This document shows, piece after piece, positions 10,668 through 19,682 of a stretch of DNA of 64,000 bases (its first letter is position 1; the number at the start of each line of letters is the position of its first letter). Source of the DNA: Paenibacillus sp. FSL H8-0079 (GTDB taxonomy: Bacteria; Bacillota; Bacilli; Paenibacillales; Paenibacillaceae); NCBI RefSeq assembly GCF_037991315.1, contig NZ_CP150300.1, forward strand, positions 2,852,001 to 2,916,000. The letters are read 5' to 3'. A program made the translations under genes and the position numbers. Below the pieces are notes generated by a model. The model did not search any database. It saw only the letters and a program-made list of their open reading frames with translations, and was not told the origin of the DNA.

Positions 10668-10745
10668 CTTGACCTTGCCGTTACGTGAAGGCTTACCCTC
10701 GGATATGGAAGGAACGATAACCAATCCAGAGGAGCCGTGAATGTA

Positions 10746-12038
10746 ATGAGTATATTGATTCAGCAAGCGACCATCCTAACGATGAAAGATGCCGAGGCCC
10801 CCTTTATGGGGGATATTCGTATTGAAGGAGATCGCATTGTACAGATTGCGAACCACATTCCTCCTCAACCTGACGATGAGATTATCGATGGCCGCAATAA
10901 GGTTGCTATGCCGGGACTGATAAATGCCCACCAACATACACCGATGAGCCTGCTCCGGGGATTCTCGGATGATCTGAAGCTGATGGACTGGCTCGAACGT
11001 AAAATGTTGCCTGCCGAAGCACGGATGAACCCGGAAGACATCTATTGGGGTGCCAAGTTATCCATCGCCGAGATGATCCGTTCAGGTACCACTGCTTTTG
11101 CGGATATGTATATCCATATGAATGAGATTGCAGAAGCAGTGAAGCAAACAGGTATGCGGGCATCGCTTACACGTGGGATGGTATTCATGGAGGATGATGG
11201 GGGACGCAGGTTGCAGGAGGCGATCGATCTTGTACAACGCTGGTCTGGAGCGGCAGAGGGGCGAATTACAACCATGTATGGCCCCCACTCGCCCTACACC
11301 TGTCCCGTGGAGCCGCTCCGTGAAGTCATTGCCATGGCTGTCGCGGAGGATATTCCTCTACATATTCATCTAGCTGAAACGAAGGAAGAAGTCGTGAAGA
11401 TTCGTGAGCGCTATGGCATGACGCCGACGGAGTATTTGGAAGAGGCGGGGATGTTCGAACAGGCACATGTCCTGCTTGCACATGGCGTACACCTTAATCG
11501 AAGGGACATCGGCAGATTGAAGGGTATGCGCGGCGGTGTAGCACACAATCCGGTCAGCAATCTGAAGCTGGGTTGTGGAATTGCTCCGATTACCGAGATG
11601 TTGGCCCAAGGAATTAACGTGGGAATGGGAACGGATGGAGCGGGAAGTGCCACAACCGTGGATATGTTCGAGGAGATCAAAGCCGCGACCTGGCTGCAAA
11701 AGCTGGACTATGGTGATCCCACTCGCTTGCCAGCCAAGGAAGTTCTAAGCATGGCGACACGCGGAAGTGCTAATCTGCTTGGCCTTCAACATGAAGTGGG
11801 TGTGCTTGAAGTGGATCGCAAAGCTGATCTGATTCTGATCGACTTGGCCAAACCACATCTTCAACCGGTACATGAGGTAGAGTCGCTACTGGCATACAGT
11901 GTAAACGGTGCGGATGTGGACACCACGATCGTGAATGGCCAGATTCTCATGAGAGGCAGAAAGCTGCTCACAATCGATGAGGAAGAACTTTACCGTGAGG
12001 TGAAGGTTAGAGCCAAACGAATCGTTGAAGGAATTTAA
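10746..12038 (+). CDS. mtaD: Amidohydrolase, probable 5-methylthioadenosine/S-adenosylhomocysteine deaminase
   Basis: 430-residue metal-dependent amidohydrolase of the MtaD/TrzN-like group, which deaminates MTA, SAH or adenosine-type substrates. Metal and catalytic motifs: AHQHTPMSLLRG (His62 and His64), HIHLAETKEE, LAHGVHL, AHNPVSNLKLGCGI and GTDGAGSATTVDMF. GTG 10737 is only 2 nt from GAGGAG; the in-frame ATG 10746 has an 11-nt spacing and is preferred. Recycling of SAM by-products would fit the nearby methyltransferase, but this link is inference. Confidence 0.82.
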   Translation: MSILIQQATILTMKDAEAPFMGDIRIEGDRIVQIANHIPPQPDDEIIDGRNKVAMPGLINAHQHTPMSLLRGFSDDLKLMDWLERKMLPAEARMNPEDIYWGAKLSIAEMIRSGTTAFADMYIHMNEIAEAVKQTGMRASLTRGMVFMEDDGGRRLQEAIDLVQRWSGAAEGRITTMYGPHSPYTCPVEPLREVIAMAVAEDIPLHIHLAETKEEVVKIRERYGMTPTEYLEEAGMFEQAHVLLAHGVHLNRRDIGRLKGMRGGVAHNPVSNLKLGCGIAPITEMLAQGINVGMGTDGAGSATTVDMFEEIKAATWLQKLDYGDPTRLPAKEVLSMATRGSANLLGLQHEVGVLEVDRKADLILIDLAKPHLQPVHEVESLLAYSVNGADVDTTIVNGQILMRGRKLLTIDEEELYREVKVRAKRIVEGI

Positions 12039-12080: not shown

Positions 12081-12115
12081 AAAACGCCATGGAGGCTTTC
12101 TCCATGGCGTTTTTT
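12081..12115 (+). terminator. Strong terminator after mtaD
   Basis: Perfect 14-bp stem (12081-12094 with 12100-12113), loop GCTTT, then a T run. Confidence 0.92.
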
Positions 12116-12140: not shown

Positions 12141-12182
12141 CATGGACCTGTTCAGAATCGGTTCAGAATGACTCGTTATACT
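12141..12182 (+). promoter_or_regulatory. Direct-repeat promoter box of the dockerin/cohesin operon
   Basis: GTTCA repeats start at 12150 and 12161, exactly 11 bp apart, followed by a TATACT -10 (12177-12182) and no ordinary -35. Over 40 bp it matches the region 15590-15629 in front of the ABC/two-component operon at 29 positions. Tandem repeats with an 11-bp period next to the -10 are typical of OmpR/PhoB-type response regulators. The regulator at 17680 is the obvious candidate. Confidence 0.65.
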
Positions 12183-12230
12183 GAGCATGTAGTTGTTCAA
12201 ATTTGAAATGTACACGAGGAGGAACATGAA

Positions 12231-13280
12231 TTGAAGGGGAAACAAAACAAAAAACGGCTTAAGCCGATATTGAAAAAAAGCATGTTGACTGCACTCGGGT
12301 TGGGCATTGCATTGCCTATAGGTGGAACGCTTCCTCAAGCTAACGCAGGAGCAATTGGTCCGGTAATAAACATTTCACGACCTGTTCTTAACGATGGCAT
12401 CCAGTGGTTAAGTTATTCATCGGAACAAAATGATCCTTCTTTTGTACCCGATGTGCCCATAGAGGTAACAAGCAATAATACAGTCAGAATCAATTTAAGT
12501 ACACATTTTCGATCCGATGAGTTTAATATGCTCACAGCCAGTTCAGGTGATAGCAGTATAGCTGAGGTGTATGTAGAAACAAGACAAGATGAAAATATGC
12601 CTACACCTACAAGTACATTGGTGGTTATTCCTTACAAGAGCGGCAAAATCAATATCGAATTGAAAGCTAAATATACAGTATCTGATGTACCAGAAACGGT
12701 TACGGATAACTTTGAACTTCACATTAGTAAAAAAGGGGATGTAAATGCAGACGGAAAAGTGAATTCTGCGGATGCAGCAGACCTTTTGGAATATCTTCGT
12801 AACATGCTAAGTCGCCGCGGCTTTACCTACGTAGAGATGAACCGAATGGACGTGGATCGTAATGCGGAACCCTCTTTGGGGGATATGAATGCGTTGTTAA
12901 ACGGATATGCCAACAAAACACTTGGCGCGAAAAACAATGACTATGTGTTGACCTTCCAACAAGTGGACGATGCGCCTTATGTGTTGAATGGTCAATTGAA
13001 GGATTACATGGAGAACGCAATTGCCACTGATTATGATTTAATGGATGTTGATGGGGATTACATTAATACTCCTTCTTATCAGTGGTACCGCGCAACAGAA
13101 GCTTCAGGAGGAGATATGGTTCCAATAGAAGGGGAGACACGAGAACAGCATACCGTTACATCGGAGGACGAGGATCATTATCTTGTGCTCGAAGTGACTG
13201 CTCATTCCACTTCAGACGCGAATACGGAGCCTAGACGAGTATACATTGTTGGAAAAGAAAAAATACAACTCCCTGATTAA
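12231..13280 (+). CDS. Secreted dockerin-domain protein
   Basis: 349 residues. Sec signal peptide (basic MKGKQNKKRLKP, hydrophobic core, likely cut after ANA39). Residues 41-168 look like an Ig-like or cadherin-like beta domain. Residues 168-226 form a dockerin: the first calcium loop DVNADGKVNSAD (170-181) is canonical, and the second, DVDRNAEPSLGD (207-218), keeps Asp, Asp, Asn and Asp at positions 1, 3, 5 and 12 but lacks the Gly. Residues 235-349 form a second beta domain. No catalytic domain is visible. The TTG start has AGGAGG at 8 nt. Followed 90 bp later by a cohesin-SLH gene, its likely binding partner. Confidence 0.82.
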   Translation: MKGKQNKKRLKPILKKSMLTALGLGIALPIGGTLPQANAGAIGPVINISRPVLNDGIQWLSYSSEQNDPSFVPDVPIEVTSNNTVRINLSTHFRSDEFNMLTASSGDSSIAEVYVETRQDENMPTPTSTLVVIPYKSGKINIELKAKYTVSDVPETVTDNFELHISKKGDVNADGKVNSADAADLLEYLRNMLSRRGFTYVEMNRMDVDRNAEPSLGDMNALLNGYANKTLGAKNNDYVLTFQQVDDAPYVLNGQLKDYMENAIATDYDLMDVDGDYINTPSYQWYRATEASGGDMVPIEGETREQHTVTSEDEDHYLVLEVTAHSTSDANTEPRRVYIVGKEKIQLPD

Positions 13281-13370
13281 TTCATATTTTTTAATTTAGA
13301 TAACGAATAACAATACTTTTCTATCTTCACCATGCAATCTACCAATTGATAAAGACATGGAGGCTAATAC

Positions 13371-15299
13371 ATGTTTCAACCGAAAAAGAAACGTCCAAGA
13401 ATCAGAAAAACAATGTCAGGTCTCATCGCACTGACGCTACTCTCGTCTCTCGTATTCCCGAGTATAGCTGGGGCAGAGCCGGCAGAACCATCACAGGTGC
13501 AATTTGCAAATGTTAGTGTACAGGCGGGGCAGACGGTTCATGTCCCTGTTACATTAAAGCAGTCCTATTCTCAGGTTAGCGCTTATAATATGCAAATTGA
13601 TTATGATACATCTGCACTGGAAGTTGTCCGTATCACGCCTAAATCTGTCAGTACCATTAGCACATCCCCAGAAGAAACCGGTACAGGAGACTTCCAGTAC
13701 GTAATTAATAACGAAGAAGGCTGGGTACGGATTATCTGGGTTGATTTCAATGCAGGTGAACGTCTGATTTCAGACGAACAGCAATTATTTGATATTGAGG
13801 TCAAAGCCAAAAGTAATGCGACTCCTGGTACAAAACAGCTCACAGTGGTGCAAGGCGATTCAGAACATTGGCATTTTACAAATCTAGAACACAATAGTGG
13901 TGCTCAGTTGTCCGGTGGAACGATCACAATTACAGCAGCAAACCCAAGTGGTGGCAATTCGGGTTCTCCAGGTTCCTCTTCGGGAGGAAGTGTATCGCCA
14001 ACTACACCCGTGGTTACCCCAGTTCCATCGACTCCGGCGGTAACCAAAGGCGTAGATATCTATGTGAATGGACAGAAACAGGAACAATCTGCGACGGCTA
14101 CCACATCAACGGTAGGCAATCAGGTTACTACCACTGTTCACGTGGATAATGACAAAGTCATTAATCAGATTGGAAGTGGACTGCGAACGCTTCTGCTACC
14201 CATTACAGGTACTGGCAAGGGCGCGGTCGTTGGTGAACTGAACGGCAAACTAGTCAAAACGATGGAAGGAAGTAATGCTGAAGTTGTCATTCAGACTGAT
14301 AGCGGTACTTATACCCTCCCGGCTAATCAGATTCAGGTAGATCAGGTTCTGAACCAATTCGGAAGCACCGTTCCATTGGAAGATATCACCATTCAAATCG
14401 CTATTGTGCCTAGTGCCACATCCAAGCAAACAGCAATTCAGGCCGCAGCGGACAAACTGCAGAACACTACAGTGATTGCAACCCCAGTTGATTTTGAAGT
14501 GACAGCCATCTGGAATGGACAGCAAGTCAATGTGGATCGTTTCAATTCATATGTAGAGCGCTCCATTACACTCCCAGAGGGTGTCGATGGTTCAAAGATC
14601 ACGACAGGTGTCGTACTTCAACCAGATGGCAGCCTTCTGCATGTGCCGACCAAGGTTATCAAAGGTAACGGGCAAGATTCTGCTATTATTAACAGCTTGA
14701 CGAACAGCACTTACGCCCTGATCTATCATCCGGCAACATTCAGCGATGTAACGAATCACTGGAGTCGTGAGGACGTACAGGATCTGGCATCCCGTCTGAT
14801 CGTACAAGGTACTGGTGATAACGTGTTTGCGCCGGACCGGAGTATTACGCGGGCAGAGTTTACGGCTGTTTTGTTAAGAGGTTTGGGTCTGCACTCCCCG
14901 ATTAGCGCAGAAGCAGCATCATTCACGGATGTGAAGACAGGCAGCTGGTATGAGGATGAGGTTCAGACGGCTGTGTCCTATGGCCTGATCTCAGGTTATG
15001 CTGACGACAGCTTCCGTCCGAATAGCGAAATTTCTCGTGCTGAAGCGCTAACCATTGTGTCACGTGCGATGAAACTGGTCGGTCTGGCACAGGCCGACGC
15101 GTCAGAGACAACAAGCCTGCTGAGCACATACAGCGATAGCGCTAAAGTACAATCATGGGCAGCAGAGCCGGTTGCATCGGCGATTAAACAAGAGCTGGTA
15201 CAAGGTGCTGATGGCAAGCTGATGACAGATGCAGACATTAGTCGTGCACAGTCAGCGGCAATTGTGAAAAGGCTGCTGGCAAAAGCCGGACTAATCTAA
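13371..15299 (+). CDS. Cohesin-domain protein with C-terminal SLH repeats (surface anchor)
   Basis: 642 residues. Signal peptide ending near AGA35; a cohesin-like domain at about 42-183 (QAGQTVHVPVTLKQSYSQVS, then AYNMQIDYDTSALEVV); a Gly/Ser/Thr/Pro linker at about 184-223; a long middle region; and three SLH repeats starting near 458 (FSDVTNHWS), 520 (FTDVKTGSWY) and 585 (YSDSAKVQSW). SLH repeats attach proteins to pyruvylated cell-wall polymer. The protein is built as a single-cohesin wall anchor. Next to the dockerin gene, without a terminator between them, it probably displays that protein on the cell surface. Confidence 0.85.
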   Translation: MFQPKKKRPRIRKTMSGLIALTLLSSLVFPSIAGAEPAEPSQVQFANVSVQAGQTVHVPVTLKQSYSQVSAYNMQIDYDTSALEVVRITPKSVSTISTSPEETGTGDFQYVINNEEGWVRIIWVDFNAGERLISDEQQLFDIEVKAKSNATPGTKQLTVVQGDSEHWHFTNLEHNSGAQLSGGTITITAANPSGGNSGSPGSSSGGSVSPTTPVVTPVPSTPAVTKGVDIYVNGQKQEQSATATTSTVGNQVTTTVHVDNDKVINQIGSGLRTLLLPITGTGKGAVVGELNGKLVKTMEGSNAEVVIQTDSGTYTLPANQIQVDQVLNQFGSTVPLEDITIQIAIVPSATSKQTAIQAAADKLQNTTVIATPVDFEVTAIWNGQQVNVDRFNSYVERSITLPEGVDGSKITTGVVLQPDGSLLHVPTKVIKGNGQDSAIINSLTNSTYALIYHPATFSDVTNHWSREDVQDLASRLIVQGTGDNVFAPDRSITRAEFTAVLLRGLGLHSPISAEAASFTDVKTGSWYEDEVQTAVSYGLISGYADDSFRPNSEISRAEALTIVSRAMKLVGLAQADASETTSLLSTYSDSAKVQSWAAEPVASAIKQELVQGADGKLMTDADISRAQSAAIVKRLLAKAGLI

Positions 15300-15304
15300 A
15301 CTTT

Positions 15305-15490
15305 ATAAGTTGAACTAAAGATTATTTACACTGACACTACGACGACAGAATAACCTTCCAATCGCTGTTATCCCCAGATTTTTTGAATCCCTTTTCCAAA
15401 GGTGAAAATCCGGGGATAAAGGCGAACGCTTCGCTTTTTCAGGTTTTTTCTGTCTTCTCCGTTATCGTGTAAATGATTAGTTTAACTTAT
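15305..15490 (+). repeat. MITE-like palindromic element, copy A
   Basis: 186 bp with imperfect terminal inverted repeats (ATAAGTTGAACTAA at the left end; ATAAGTTAAACTAA as the reverse complement of the right end), each followed by ATTTACAC inward. The centre holds nested hairpins (CCCCAGATTTT with AAAATCCGGGG; GCGAACGCTTCGC). No coding potential. Related copies lie at 26079-26265 (inverted) and 53663-53845, with a decayed half at 25263-25350. TA dinucleotides flank both ends. Confidence 0.8.
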
Positions 15491-15589
15491 ATTATCAAAT
15501 GCAATAACGAAATAAGACAACCCGAGTCCTTATATCTAAGGATTCGGGTTTTTTGCATATAGTTCTTTTGAACAACCTCTTATAGGTGC

Positions 15590-15631
15590 AATGGTCCAGT
15601 TCATTATCAGTTCACAATGATTTGTTACGAT
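15590..15631 (+). promoter_or_regulatory. Direct-repeat promoter box of the ABC/two-component operon
   Basis: GTTCA repeats start at 15599 and 15610 (11-bp spacing) with TACGAT (15626-15631) as the -10, aligned base for base with the box at 12141-12182. It lies 56 bp before ATG 15687. It is probably the autoregulatory site of the response regulator at 17680. Confidence 0.65.
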
Positions 15632-15686: not shown

Positions 15687-17651
15687 ATGAAAATACTAGA
15701 AGTTAAAAATGTGAAGAAATCATACACCTTATATGGAAAAGAAAGAGTTCCGGTACTCCACGGTTTGAACTTAAGCTTTGAGACGGGGGAGTTCGTCTCC
15801 ATCCTAGGCGAATCTGGCTGCGGTAAGTCAACGCTGATGAATATCATTGGGGGAATGGACTCCGATTATGAAGGGGACGTCGTTGTTCGTGGCAAGAACT
15901 TAAGTGCCATGACAGAGAAGGAAATGGATGATTATCGGAAGAATAATATCGGCTTTGTCTTTCAAAATTTCAATCTGATCCCGCATCTGTCTGTCCTCGA
16001 AAATGTGACGATTGCGATGCAAATGACGGATACCAATGAGAAGGAGCGGAACCAACGTGCCGTTGATATATTAACAGAGGTCGGGCTGAAGGATCATCTG
16101 AACAAACGTCCCAACCAGTTATCTGGCGGTCAGAAGCAACGAGTTTCCATCGCACGGGCGTTATCCAACAATCCGGATATTATTCTCGCAGATGAACCAA
16201 CAGGTGCTCTGGATAGGGAAAACGGAGATCAAATCCTCGCTTTGCTCGACAGTATAGCAAAAAAGGGAATGCTGGTGATCGCCGTAACTCACTCGCAGAA
16301 AGTCGCTGACTCCGGTACACGTATTGTGAAGGTTGAAGAAGGGCGCATTAGTGATGATATTCACCTGAAAGATCCTTCTACGGCTGTTTATGAGAGTCGT
16401 CAGGATTCTTCCCGGAGCCTGAGCTTGCTTGCTTCATTCAAGATGGCACTTAAAAATATGAAACTCAACGGCAAGCGTAATGTTCTGGTCGCTTTGGGTG
16501 GATCTATAGGTATATTAAGTGTACTCCTGATGCTCTCCTTGGGGAATGGTATAACGACGTATATGAATGACGAAATCAATTCAAGTATGGACCCTTTGCT
16601 CGTGGATATAACGAAGCCGAGTGAAGAAGCCAAGGACATGCAAGGTCCCGAGGCCTTGATGGCACCAGGTGAACAATTTACCGAAGCTGATGTTGAGACA
16701 ATTCGCAATTTTCCTAATGTGGATCATGTAGAGACGATCACAACTATTACAGGCAAATCGACTATGGTGAATGAAGAACAAAGTGTGGGACTTACGCAGT
16801 TAACGACGTTAACGGATGCTTTTGATCCAGCACTGATGACAACGGGGGTCCTTCCTGTAGAAAATCAGATGCTGTTACCTCTCGATACGGCGAAACAATT
16901 AAGCGGAATCGACCAAGCCGAATCCATAATCGGCAAGTCCGTGTTTCTATATATCAATGAGATGGATGGCAATAATAAACCAGTAACCTTGGAGAAAGAA
17001 GTAACCATCTCAGGAATCTATGAAGCAGCAGACCCAAGATCTCCAATGCAACAATCCCCGGGATACATCTCATCAGAGACGTTGGAGCCAATGTATACGG
17101 ATAAAGGAATAACGATCGGGCCGATTCAGGTTAACGCCTATGCAACCGATATGAAATATGTAAATGATATCAATGAAGCTGCTGTGGATGCTGGCTTCGC
17201 AGGCTCTCAAATGGCCAAGGTCATGGAGAATATCACGACTTATGTTAGTATGGCTTCCATTGTACTCGCTGGTATTGCAGGCATTTCGTTGATCGTATCC
17301 GGTATCATGATATTGGTTGTACTCTATATTAGTGTCGTGGAACGGACGAAGGAGATCGGAATTCTTCGGGCAATTGGAGCGAGAAAGAAAGATATCAAGC
17401 GAATATTCTTCTCCGAATCTGCCTTATTAGGGGTATTTAGTGGTATTATTGCGGTAATCTTTGCAGTGATCATTAGTTATGTGTTAAACATTCTATTGGA
17501 CAATGCATTTGGAGCAAAACTCATTAATCTCTCAGGATATTATATCTTGTTCGGTATTGTGGTAAGTACAGCGATTAGTATCGTGGCCGGTCTGATGCCG
17601 TCATCAAAAGCTGCAAAACTCGACCCGATGGAATCCTTGCGATACGAATAA
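15687..17651 (+). CDS. MacB-like fused ABC transporter (ATPase plus FtsX-type permease)
   Basis: 654 residues. The N-terminal ATPase has Walker A GESGCGKST (41-49), signature LSGGQ (near 143) and Walker [12 protein letters not shown] (near 166). The C-terminal half has one helix near 270, a large extracytoplasmic domain (about 290-515) and three further helices with an FtsX/MacB core (ERTKEIGILRAIGARKKDI). This is a mechanotransmission-type transporter that works on substrates outside the membrane, such as peptides, lipoproteins or cell-wall factors. It is encoded in one operon with a two-component system, which probably senses the same signal. Confidence 0.9.
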   Translation: MKILEVKNVKKSYTLYGKERVPVLHGLNLSFETGEFVSILGESGCGKSTLMNIIGGMDSDYEGDVVVRGKNLSAMTEKEMDDYRKNNIGFVFQNFNLIPHLSVLENVTIAMQMTDTNEKERNQRAVDILTEVGLKDHLNKRPNQLSGGQKQRVSIARALSNNPDIILADEPTGALDRENGDQILALLDSIAKKGMLVIAVTHSQKVADSGTRIVKVEEGRISDDIHLKDPSTAVYESRQDSSRSLSLLASFKMALKNMKLNGKRNVLVALGGSIGILSVLLMLSLGNGITTYMNDEINSSMDPLLVDITKPSEEAKDMQGPEALMAPGEQFTEADVETIRNFPNVDHVETITTITGKSTMVNEEQSVGLTQLTTLTDAFDPALMTTGVLPVENQMLLPLDTAKQLSGIDQAESIIGKSVFLYINEMDGNNKPVTLEKEVTISGIYEAADPRSPMQQSPGYISSETLEPMYTDKGITIGPIQVNAYATDMKYVNDINEAAVDAGFAGSQMAKVMENITTYVSMASIVLAGIAGISLIVSGIMILVVLYISVVERTKEIGILRAIGARKKDIKRIFFSESALLGVFSGIIAVIFAVIISYVLNILLDNAFGAKLINLSGYYILFGIVVSTAISIVAGLMPSSKAAKLDPMESLRYE

Positions 17652-17679: not shown

Positions 17680-18348
17680 ATGAACACGATTCTGGTGGTG
17701 GACGATGATTCCCATATCCGCAAATTAATCCGAATCTATCTTGAAAAGAATCAATTCTCAGTGCTGGAAGCACCAGACGGTCAAGAAGCGCTGGATATCC
17801 TCTCTCATACAAGAGTTGATCTGGCGATTGTGGATGTAATGATGCCGCGAATAGACGGCATTGAACTTACCGAAGATATCCGATCTTATCTGGATATTCC
17901 GATTCTCATGGTAACTGCCAAGGGAGAATCCAAGGACAAAGTCAGAGGGTTTAATGCGGGGTCAGACGACTACCTGGTTAAACCTTTTGATCCGGTAGAA
18001 TTAATCCTGCGTGTAAAATCGTTACTGAAACGATATAACAAAAGTCCATCGAACATGATTCAGATCAGCGGTGTAACGATTGATTTGGGCAATCTGATGG
18101 TTGTTTCGGATGGACAATCTATCGAATTGAAAAAGAAGGAATGTGAATTGTTATTTTCTCTGGCGAGTTCGCCAGGGAAAATATTCACACGTACACAGCT
18201 TATAGATGATATATGGGGTATCGATTATGAAGGCGATGAGCGTACGGTCGACGTGCATATCAAGCGGTTAAGGGAACGGCTTGAACCCGTACCTGAGCTA
18301 GTGATCTCAACGATAAGAGGACTCGGTTATCGCCTGGAGCGTGCATGA
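17680..18348 (+). CDS. OmpR/PhoB-family response regulator
   Basis: 222 residues. Receiver domain with acidic pocket VDDD, phospho-acceptor Asp52 (AIVDVMMPRIDG) and a conserved Lys in DDYLVKPFDP; C-terminal winged helix (FTRTQLIDDIWG, then DVHIKRLRERLEP). Lies 28 bp after the MacB-like gene; its stop overlaps the kinase start (ATGA). Candidate targets are the two GTTCA direct-repeat boxes at 12150 and 15599. Confidence 0.93.
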   Translation: MNTILVVDDDSHIRKLIRIYLEKNQFSVLEAPDGQEALDILSHTRVDLAIVDVMMPRIDGIELTEDIRSYLDIPILMVTAKGESKDKVRGFNAGSDDYLVKPFDPVELILRVKSLLKRYNKSPSNMIQISGVTIDLGNLMVVSDGQSIELKKKECELLFSLASSPGKIFTRTQLIDDIWGIDYEGDERTVDVHIKRLRERLEPVPELVISTIRGLGYRLERA

Positions 18349-19682
18349 ACATGTTGAGGAAAAGCCTGCGACTTCGAATCGTAGCTACGTTTATTGGAAT
18401 TGTTCTGGTGAGTTTGATTCTCTCCTTTATGCTGAATAGTGGGACACAGGAAAAGACGCCAGATCGTTTTATGGTTACCTTTGCCGAAGATATCGCTACA
18501 CTGATTAATTTGATCGATGATCCGGAAAAAGTACAATCAAGCTTAGGTATCTTTGCCCGGTATGGCTTGAACATCACTCCGGTGAATGAACAAAGTGAAG
18601 TGTTATCTTCCTTGCCTGAGGACAAAGTTCATTCGTTATTTGAGATGGGTACAACGGGTGCAATGTTTATGTCCAGTAAGGATGGAATTGCGACCATAGG
18701 TGTTCCCGGAACCAACGAGGGGATAGGCACCTTTCTAATTCAAAGCGATTTCTCCTCTCTTTTTCATACACTGCGGAACACGCTCTTAACTTCACTATTA
18801 ACGGTTCTGGTCATTGGTAGCTTATTAATCCTGTTTATGTCCGGGTACATTGTAAAACCGATTAAGAGGTTAACGGTTGCAGCGAAGGAGATGTCCTCAG
18901 GAGATCTGTCGGTCCGCCTGAAACACAATAATAAGGATGAGTTTGGGGAACTGATGGAGAGCTTTAATCATATGGCCAGTGAGTTGCAGAAAATCGATTC
19001 GGTTCGTGATGACTTTGTCAGCAATGTCTCTCATGAAATGCAGTCTCCGCTCACATCGATCAGAGGGTTTACCAGAGCACTACAAGATGGTGTTATTCCA
19101 TTAGAAGAGCAGAAAGAGCATTTGGATATTATCTATGAGGAAACGCTGCGCTTATCGAGGCTCAGTGATAATCTGCTACGGCTAGCCTCGCTAGATTCGG
19201 AGCATCATCCGGTTCATTTCACCACATTCCAGTTGGATGAACAATTAAGAAGGGCGATCTTACTGGCAGAGCCGCAGTGGGCGCAGAAGGACATACAGAT
19301 CGAGTTGGACTTGTTGCCCTGCGAGATCACAGTGGACAAAGATTTGTTTGATCAGGTCTGGCAGAATTTAATAAACAATGCGATCAAATATACCGGTTCT
19401 ATGGGTACCATTCATGTCGAAATTGAGACGTCATCTTCATTCGTGAAGGTATTGATTAGAGATTCTGGACAAGGCATACCTAAGGAAGCCCTCCCGTATA
19501 TCTTTGATCGATTCTATATGGCGGACAAAGCGCGGAGCAGCTCGCTTCGAGGTAATAGATTAGGGTTGTCCATTGTGATTAAAATTTTGAAATTGCATCA
19601 ATGTACAATTGATGTAGAGAGTGAAGTAGGAAAAGGCACGCAGTTTATTGTCACGATTCCCAGATCGGTCATCACATCTTAG
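18345..19682 (+). CDS. HAMP-domain sensor histidine kinase
   Basis: 445 residues. Membrane helices at about 11-30 and 146-168 enclose a sensor loop of about 115 residues; HAMP at about 169-221; H-box DFVSNVSHEMQSPLTSIRG with phospho-accepting His230; N-box QNLINNAIKYTG; G1 DSGQGIP; G2 reads SSLRGNRLGLSI rather than the usual GGTGLGLSI. Overlaps the response regulator by 4 bp, so it is its cognate kinase. The H-box MQSP in place of LRTP is unusual but conservative. Confidence 0.92.
   Translation: MNMLRKSLRLRIVATFIGIVLVSLILSFMLNSGTQEKTPDRFMVTFAEDIATLINLIDDPEKVQSSLGIFARYGLNITPVNEQSEVLSSLPEDKVHSLFEMGTTGAMFMSSKDGIATIGVPGTNEGIGTFLIQSDFSSLFHTLRNTLLTSLLTVLVIGSLLILFMSGYIVKPIKRLTVAAKEMSSGDLSVRLKHNNKDEFGELMESFNHMASELQKIDSVRDDFVSNVSHEMQSPLTSIRGFTRALQDGVIPLEEQKEHLDIIYEETLRLSRLSDNLLRLASLDSEHHPVHFTTFQLDEQLRRAILLAEPQWAQKDIQIELDLLPCEITVDKDLFDQVWQNLINNAIKYTGSMGTIHVEIETSSSFVKVLIRDSGQGIPKEALPYIFDRFYMADKARSSSLRGNRLGLSIVIKILKLHQCTIDVESEVGKGTQFIVTIPRSVITS

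Follow-up and report, generated by a model that had tools for sequence, protein, structure and literature searches.

We analyzed a stretch of 64,000 nucleotides from Paenibacillus sp. FSL H8-0079, here called the window, in which an operon for a dockerin-bearing secreted protein and a cohesin-bearing surface protein is followed by an operon for a MacB-like ATP-binding cassette (ABC) transporter and a two-component system. The elements in question are the tandem GTTCA repeats in the promoters of these operons, referred to as the dockerin box and the transporter box. Genes are named by their first position, so that the OmpR-type response regulator of the second operon is the 17680 regulator. An earlier note on this DNA had taken the two boxes for one and had assigned both to a single activator, most likely that regulator. 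Our comparison suggests that they belong to two families and that the dockerin box is probably read by a SARP-type response regulator encoded elsewhere in the genome. The features of the locus are collected in Table 1.

Table 1. Features of the dockerin/cohesin and transporter operons in the window
Feature	Position	Strand	Remark
Terminator-like inverted repeat with T run	12083..12115	+	3' of the amidohydrolase gene (10737-12038), 5' of the dockerin promoter; read from the sequence
Dockerin box, two 11-bp direct repeats GTTCAGAATCG/GTTCAGAATGA	12150..12171	+	Proposed operator of a SARP-type regulator
Dockerin promoter, -10 TATACT	12177..12182	+	27 bp from box start
Dockerin-bearing secreted protein, 349 aa, TTG start	12231..13280	+	Pfam Dockerin_1, 21.7 bits
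Surface protein with cohesin and S-layer-homology (SLH) domains, 642 aa	13371..15299	+	Pfam Cohesin 63.6 bits, SLH 119.4 bits
Transporter-operon box GTTCATTATCA/GTTCACAATGA	15599..15620	+	Proposed operator of the 17680 regulator
Transporter promoter, -10 TACGAT	15626..15631	+	Register as in the dockerin promoter
MacB-like ABC transporter, 654 aa (ATPase, MacB_PCD, FtsX)	15687..17651	+	Pfam
OmpR-type response regulator, 222 aa	17680..18348	+	Pfam; likely activator of promoter 15599-15631
Sensor histidine kinase, 445 aa (HAMP, HisKA, HATPase)	18345..19682	+	Pfam

The Dockerin_1 match of the 12231 protein misses the Pfam gathering score (21.7 versus 22.9 bits), and in the PDB its best sequence matches fall on short segments of the chains of cellulosomal enzymes (E 1.9e-4 and weaker). 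The cohesin domain of the 13371 protein exceeds its gathering score (63.6 versus 24.1 bits); in the PDB, the SLH part matches S-layer proteins, and cohesins are matched weakly. The nearest PDB sequences of the 17680 regulator are MtrA and RegX3. It bears no established name here, because a scan of seven proteins against NCBIfam gave no model at cut-off among the matches listed (25 of 99).

The blocks at 12141-12180 and 15590-15629 are identical at 29 of 40 positions, as the earlier note had reported. Elsewhere in the window, no 40-mer matches either block at more than 23 positions on the plus strand or 24 on the minus strand, and both blocks lie at promoters. At the composition of the window, the chance of at least 29 of 40 identities is 5.2e-10 per comparison and 6.7e-5 over 128,000 positions on both strands. 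The GTTCA repeats start at 12150 and 12161 in the dockerin box and at 15599 and 15610 in the transporter box, a period of 11 bp, and both -10 hexamers stand in one register, 27 bp from the start of the box. The similar distance to the start codons was also borne out: the end of the 33-bp module precedes the TTG at 12231 by 48 bp and the ATG at 15687 by 55 bp. Neither promoter has a normal -35; the repeats take its place, and with these 11-bp tandem half-sites both promoters look activator-dependent. The pattern GTTCAN6GTTCAN3TG gave 7 exact matches genome-wide versus 0 for the reversed-pattern control, and in the window, with up to two mismatches, 17 matches versus 7.0 expected. Three places matching this pattern (1181758, 3759969, and 5058465) were rejected as regulon members, having the repeats but no TANNNT in register in the sequence inspected.

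The sixth base of the half-site separates the two boxes. For 17680 orthologues and homologues, we listed the GTTCAN6GTTCA sites at 36 loci, accepting exact sites and, where the TA and the T of a -10 stood in register, also sites with one mismatch. Seven of the 39 sites, all of them dockerin boxes, begin GTTCAGAAT, with G at position 6. Among the other 32, position 6 of the first repeat is T throughout (32/32), and that of the second is T in 26 and C in 6. The transporter box, GTTCATTATCA-GTTCAC, fits the resulting half-site of the 17680 family, GTTCA[T/C]; the dockerin box, GTTCAGAATCG-GTTCAGAAT, has GTTCAG in both repeats and lies off it. On a weight matrix built from 28 dockerin-type sites (LysM-type, NUDIX-type, and other weaker sites excluded), the dockerin box scored 44.5 bits, a value flattered by its place in the training set, and the transporter box, which is not in that set, 18.2 bits, followed by 10.1 bits for the next site in the window. 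Judged by their sequences, the dockerin and transporter boxes are thus not one motif but two families, and their likeness at 29 of 40 positions would follow from a common operator layout of two 11-bp repeats.

We compared the locus across 20 regions from related genomes and counted presence over 59 genomes (handles beginning with G; G000 is the genome of the window). Both modules occur in 8 genomes, the dockerin module alone in 3, the 17680 module alone in 7, and neither in 41; four weak partial dockerin matches (G004, G019, G045, and G056) were not counted. In G022, G034, G008, G026, G001, and G029, the 17680 system is flanked by the amidohydrolase and ubiD genes, with no dockerin gene, and G007 has a more diverged 17680 system, likewise without the dockerin/cohesin pair. 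The pair occurs without the 17680 system between the same two neighbor genes in G010, G020, and G013 (in G013, the match to the cohesin protein begins at residue 224), where the best 17680 relatives are 50 to 53% identical, which is paralogue level. Because each module occurs without the other (3/11 dockerin genomes and 7/15 17680 genomes), the two are separable. These counts do not support the proposal that the surface pair and the MacB-like transporter form one signaling unit, and sensing of an envelope state by the pair likewise found no support in these data. In G029, 96 residues of the cohesin/SLH protein are left between the amidohydrolase gene and the transporter gene (L072:2388-2675), a trace of a lost surface pair.

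Each box is kept with its own module. The dockerin box and its -10 stand upstream of the dockerin gene in 11/11 genomes, including the 3/3 without a 17680 orthologue. In the latter (G010, G020, and G013, in this order), the half-site bases are identical to those of the window at 18/18, 18/18, and 17/18 positions and the -10 at 6/6 in each. Of the bases in between, 4, 3, and 3 of 7 are identical, of the 15 that follow 7, 11, and 12, and of the 20 that precede 18, 15, and 8. Of the 15 orthologous operons, 14 retain the transporter box ahead of the transporter gene. The box has its common form also in G008 and G034, where only fragments of the SARP-type regulator remain, with no kinase beside them. 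The outcome is a double dissociation, the dockerin box being kept without the 17680 regulator in three genomes and the transporter box without an intact SARP in two.

Homologous two-component loci in other genera (L074 and L075) carry GTTCAT-type boxes that precede the regulator gene by 78 and 86 bp. Since the box is kept in 14/15 operons and boxes of this type recur at homologous loci, the 17680 regulator likely activates its own ABC/two-component operon. This half of the earlier assignment is supported; the half concerning the dockerin operon is not, that box being kept where the 17680 regulator is absent. A large 17680 regulon is not indicated, as the transporter-type pattern gave 8 matches genome-wide versus 3 for the controls. 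No GTTCAN6GTTCA site was seen in L047, L050, L052-L056, L112, and L113, some of which had a flank of 1.5 kb only. At L008, a paralogous two-component system (regulator 53% identical) is followed by alpha/beta hydrolase, PAF-acetylhydrolase-like, and beta-lactamase-family genes. Among them stand three GTTCATATT tandem boxes with no -10 in register (L008:5933, 7037, and 10925; G000:C1:3110932, 3112036, and 3115924).

The candidate reader of the dockerin box is a group-1 SARP-type response regulator encoded at G000:C1:6377273-6378433, about 3.5 Mb from the locus. It has a receiver, Trans_reg_C (27.2 bits; cut-off, 26.2) and BTAD (67.6 bits; cut-off, 22.1), and among solved structures it matched mainly receiver domains (best 60 of 159 matches). 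W199, T213, R219, and K220, by eye the apparent counterparts of W74, T88, R94, and K95, the DNA-contacting residues that AfsR homologues share, are invariant in 9 aligned group-1 SARPs of the 27. Directly upstream lies a hybrid kinase gene, whose product scored 26.9 bits for 7TMR-DISM_7TM in G000 (below the cut-off of 29) and 44.8 in G017, with HisKA, HATPase_c, and receiver above cut-off in both. A DNA photolyase gene (L213:1400-2743, minus strand) adjoins the SARP gene.

Dockerin-type boxes were present in 27/27 genomes with an intact group-1 SARP versus 7/32 without one (Fisher 1.1e-10, uncorrected for ancestry), and within the genus in 24/24 versus 4/12 (p 1.6e-5). The association with the 17680 regulator was 14/15 versus 20/44 (p 1.8e-3). 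Two other SARP paralogues, with 14/14 versus 20/45 (1.2e-4) and 15/16 versus 19/43 (7.5e-4), were rejected as equal candidates on account of this weaker association. An intact group-1 SARP was found in 11/11 dockerin genomes, the 17680 regulator in 8/11, and 16 further genomes have the SARP without a dockerin gene. Boxes also lie beside the regulator itself. In G017 and G046, a box is followed by the hybrid kinase gene and the group-1 SARP gene; in G021, it lies between the kinase and regulator genes; and in G014, G015, and G033, it precedes an SLH gene, the kinase, and the regulator. In 6/27 intact-SARP genomes, the 10 kb upstream of the SARP gene thus contain a box on the same strand, where 0.11 sites were expected. 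As G014, G015, and G033 share one arrangement, these amount to about four independent cases.

Seven box genomes lack an intact SARP (G004, G008, G031, G034, G037, G050, and G056), and remnants of the gene are left in G004, G008, G031, and G034; the last was not counted as intact despite its E-value, as only residues 187-387 match. In G034, G008, and G031, the regulator lies in pieces beside a full-length photolyase gene, and the 12 to 14 kb around these remnants held no full kinase (a 55-residue match in G031). In G004, one box stands directly before DNA matching two pieces of the SARP 3' end, without the SLH and kinase genes found in G014, G015, and G033.

The dockerin-type motif recurs before large secreted and SLH proteins. 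In the genome of the window, GTTCAGAATNNGTTCAGAAT with up to three mismatches gave 22 matches versus 4 for the reversed control, and GTTCAGAATNNGTTCAGART-N7-TANNAT, at the same tolerance, 10 versus 0. The latter pattern gave 159 matches in 34 of the 59 genomes versus 1 for the reversed control, so that 25/59 genomes have no dockerin-type box; three of the 159 are transporter boxes (G000, G025, and G029). The G056 site is known as a count only, and the G012 and G019 sites were seen in a separate scan. A loose form, GTTCANNNTNNGTTCANNNTN7TANNNT with up to two mismatches, gave 48 matches versus 13 for the controls. In a one-genome-per-species collection, from which the window's own or very near genome records may be absent, the dockerin-type pattern without mismatches occurred in 17 stretches, all of them (17/17) from Paenibacillus.

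We surveyed targets at 86 distinct sites within selected loci, a subset of all sites, 3 of them transporter-type. An open reading frame of at least 90 aa starts within 160 bp of 57 of the other 83, and 26 have none. Forty-four of the 57 frames reach 300 aa, with a hydrophobic N-terminal stretch in 40/44, and 24/57 match the SLH region of the window, an undercount because many loci end 1.5 kb downstream. Pfam confirmed SLH domains after the boxes at L176, L177, and L217. Further targets are hybrid kinases, LysM, NUDIX-like, and YheC/D-like proteins, and others without clear assignment. A GTTCAGAAT-type box precedes a LysM protein at L179:4862 (minus strand; G000:C1:6499829), L131, and L262 and is kept in G008 and G034 despite the loss of the intact SARP; we take this protein to resemble YneA.

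Other sites were seen in varied surroundings. The box at L267, L192, L257, and L285 is followed by a glycosyltransferase operon in which, for L267 and L285, an AlgI-like membrane acyltransferase was recognized by eye; this is a possible exopolysaccharide operon of the same regulon. At L268 (G026:C44:46800-54500), a box is followed by two large secreted proteins, the second cohesin-like by eye, and then by another response regulator and kinase. Box-like sites at L174:3235 (G000:C1:6001234) and L173:2884 (G000:C1:4545883) are kept in close relatives, with no obvious protein-coding gene downstream. A YheC/D-like ATP-grasp protein of G000 and a short SLH-bearing frame of G026 (L271:6436-6834, minus strand, and L126) share their first residues after the box, perhaps through recombination just after the promoter.

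We consider it probable that the two boxes, related but not the same, have different activators whose DNA-binding heads are of one kind, the SARP for the dockerin box and the 17680 regulator for the box of its own operon. The two motif families, their conservation, the double dissociation, co-occurrence, and operon linkage point to this, and from them we infer binding, activation, phosphorylation, and a stimulus. In this model, the 17680 regulator would activate the transporter/two-component operon through the GTTCA[T/C] half-site, and the dockerin/cohesin operon would belong to a separate regulon with the half-site GTTCAGAA. The hybrid kinase encoded just upstream would phosphorylate the SARP-type response regulator (receiver, OmpR-type winged helix, and BTAD), the most likely activator of the dockerin operon. 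A dimer of this regulator would occupy the two 11-bp repeats standing in for the -35, its subunits side by side, and bring in RNA polymerase, and large secreted proteins, many with SLH domains, would be switched on. With somewhat less assurance, we favor a surface-coat regulon at the level of the genus Paenibacillus. Through the GTTCAGAATNN tandem box, a membrane hybrid kinase and the SARP-type regulator would drive the cohesin/dockerin pair and SLH proteins, joined in some species by a possible exopolysaccharide operon, and loss of the regulator would be followed by loss of surface targets.

Several observations weigh against the assignment of one activator to each box. The layout cannot by itself choose between a SARP and an OmpR-type reader, because PHO boxes share the arrangement of two 11-nt repeats (PMC4415409). 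In G007, whose 17680 relative is 73% identical, the transporter box retains its first repeat only. The kinase/SARP region of the window's own genome (L213) has no site of at least 9 bits on the dockerin matrix. G008 and G034, without an intact SARP, have four box sites each (LysM, NUDIX, and two types without a clear gene, typed by site sequence), and under the same loss G004 retains a box ahead of an SLH gene (L282) and G031 one ahead of a glycosyltransferase operon. Where the group-1 SARP is lacking, G037 and G050 have one three-mismatch site each and G056 has one site. The persisting boxes may be relics or serve another reader. In addition, shared ancestry inflates the Fisher values, and the scores cover the best 32 (SARP search) or 50 (17680 search) of up to 148 first-look candidates per genome.

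Among the alternatives, reading of the dockerin box by another OmpR/PhoB-type response regulator, not a SARP, fares best, and we still regard it as unlikely. The PHO boxes with their two 11-nt repeats, the S. coelicolor PhoP motif GTTCACC (PMC4415409), and the boxes that outlast the SARP speak for it, but such a reader would leave the boxes upstream of the SARP gene in 6/27 genomes unaccounted for, as well as the fact that, of the four regulators profiled, the SARP co-occurs with the boxes most strongly. A universal regulator is, moreover, an unlikely reader, because 25/59 genomes are boxless. Marginally less credible is cross-talk, in which each box has its own main regulator and the 17680 regulator weakly contacts the dockerin box or the SARP the transporter box. 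The transporter box reaches 18.2 bits on the dockerin matrix, against 10.1 for the next site in the window, and weak cross-binding is therefore possible, which also tells against a strict division; yet both boxes persist where the regulator of the other is missing.

That the 17680 regulator activates both operons as one envelope-signaling unit appears very improbable. The match, the shared layout, the adjacency of the operons, and the joint presence of the modules in 8 genomes would suit it, but it conflicts with the persistence of the dockerin box in all three dockerin genomes without 17680, with the sixth base that parts the two box families across all 39 sites, and with the dockerin-type boxes in 20/44 genomes without 17680. 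A single shared box was accordingly rejected, as motif families and distributions differ. A chance likeness or a duplicated promoter without regulatory meaning, which the presence of only two such sites in the window might suggest, can practically be dismissed, given a chance of about 7e-5 for the window, the excess over controls genome-wide, and half-sites and a -10 that are kept while most flanks diverge (though the 20 upstream bases agree at 18/20 in G010).

If the model holds, two regulators of the OmpR fold with one operator layout can mimic one shared box in a comparison of two sites alone; what tells the two systems apart is base 6 of the half-site, together with where each regulator occurs. 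Among the matches listed for open-access literature on Paenibacillus, the available text, PMC5072692 included, described no regulator or box of this kind and no regulator of surface-protein expression in the genus.

The boxes resemble the PHO boxes of PhoB and PhoP in their two 11-nt direct repeats, and the 17680 regulator belongs to the OmpR family. Unlike the S. coelicolor PhoP motif (PMC4415409), the 17680-type box has T as its sixth base. The surface proteins recall cellulosomal pairs, with a cohesin above and a dockerin just below the Pfam cut-off and weak PDB sequence matches to cohesins and dockerin-bearing chains. Unlike a cellulosome, the locus has a single dockerin protein and a single SLH-anchored cohesin protein, in which Pfam finds no enzyme domain, and on this evidence we would not call the pair a cellulosome.

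A further likeness is to the SARPs AfsR, ActII-4, and PimR of Streptomyces and to the afs box, which combine an OmpR-type winged helix and BTAD with 11-bp repeats, the upstream one overlapping the -35. According to PMC10936776, the direct repeats of SARP operators have a spacing of 11 or 22 bp, and 8 bp separate the 3' repeat from the -10. An AfsR dimer binds two 11-bp repeats that overlap the -35, its subunits side by side, and contacts the first 8 bp of each repeat, the -35 of afsS being TTCAGC (PMC10936776); SARP operators are also described in PMC5930380. The dockerin box fits this layout, as reported there, in its 11-bp period and in the 8 bp between the 3' repeat and the -10, counting 8 bases per repeat with GTTCAGAA as the contacted bases. 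Unlike the Streptomyces SARPs, the Paenibacillus protein has an N-terminal receiver and a neighboring hybrid kinase, its host is not an actinomycete, and its proposed targets are surface proteins, not antibiotic clusters. If true, our model would name a regulator, a box, and a set of targets with which the expression of surface proteins in Paenibacillus can be put to the test, and SARP-type control would reach from actinomycete antibiotic clusters to the cell-surface genes of a firmicute.

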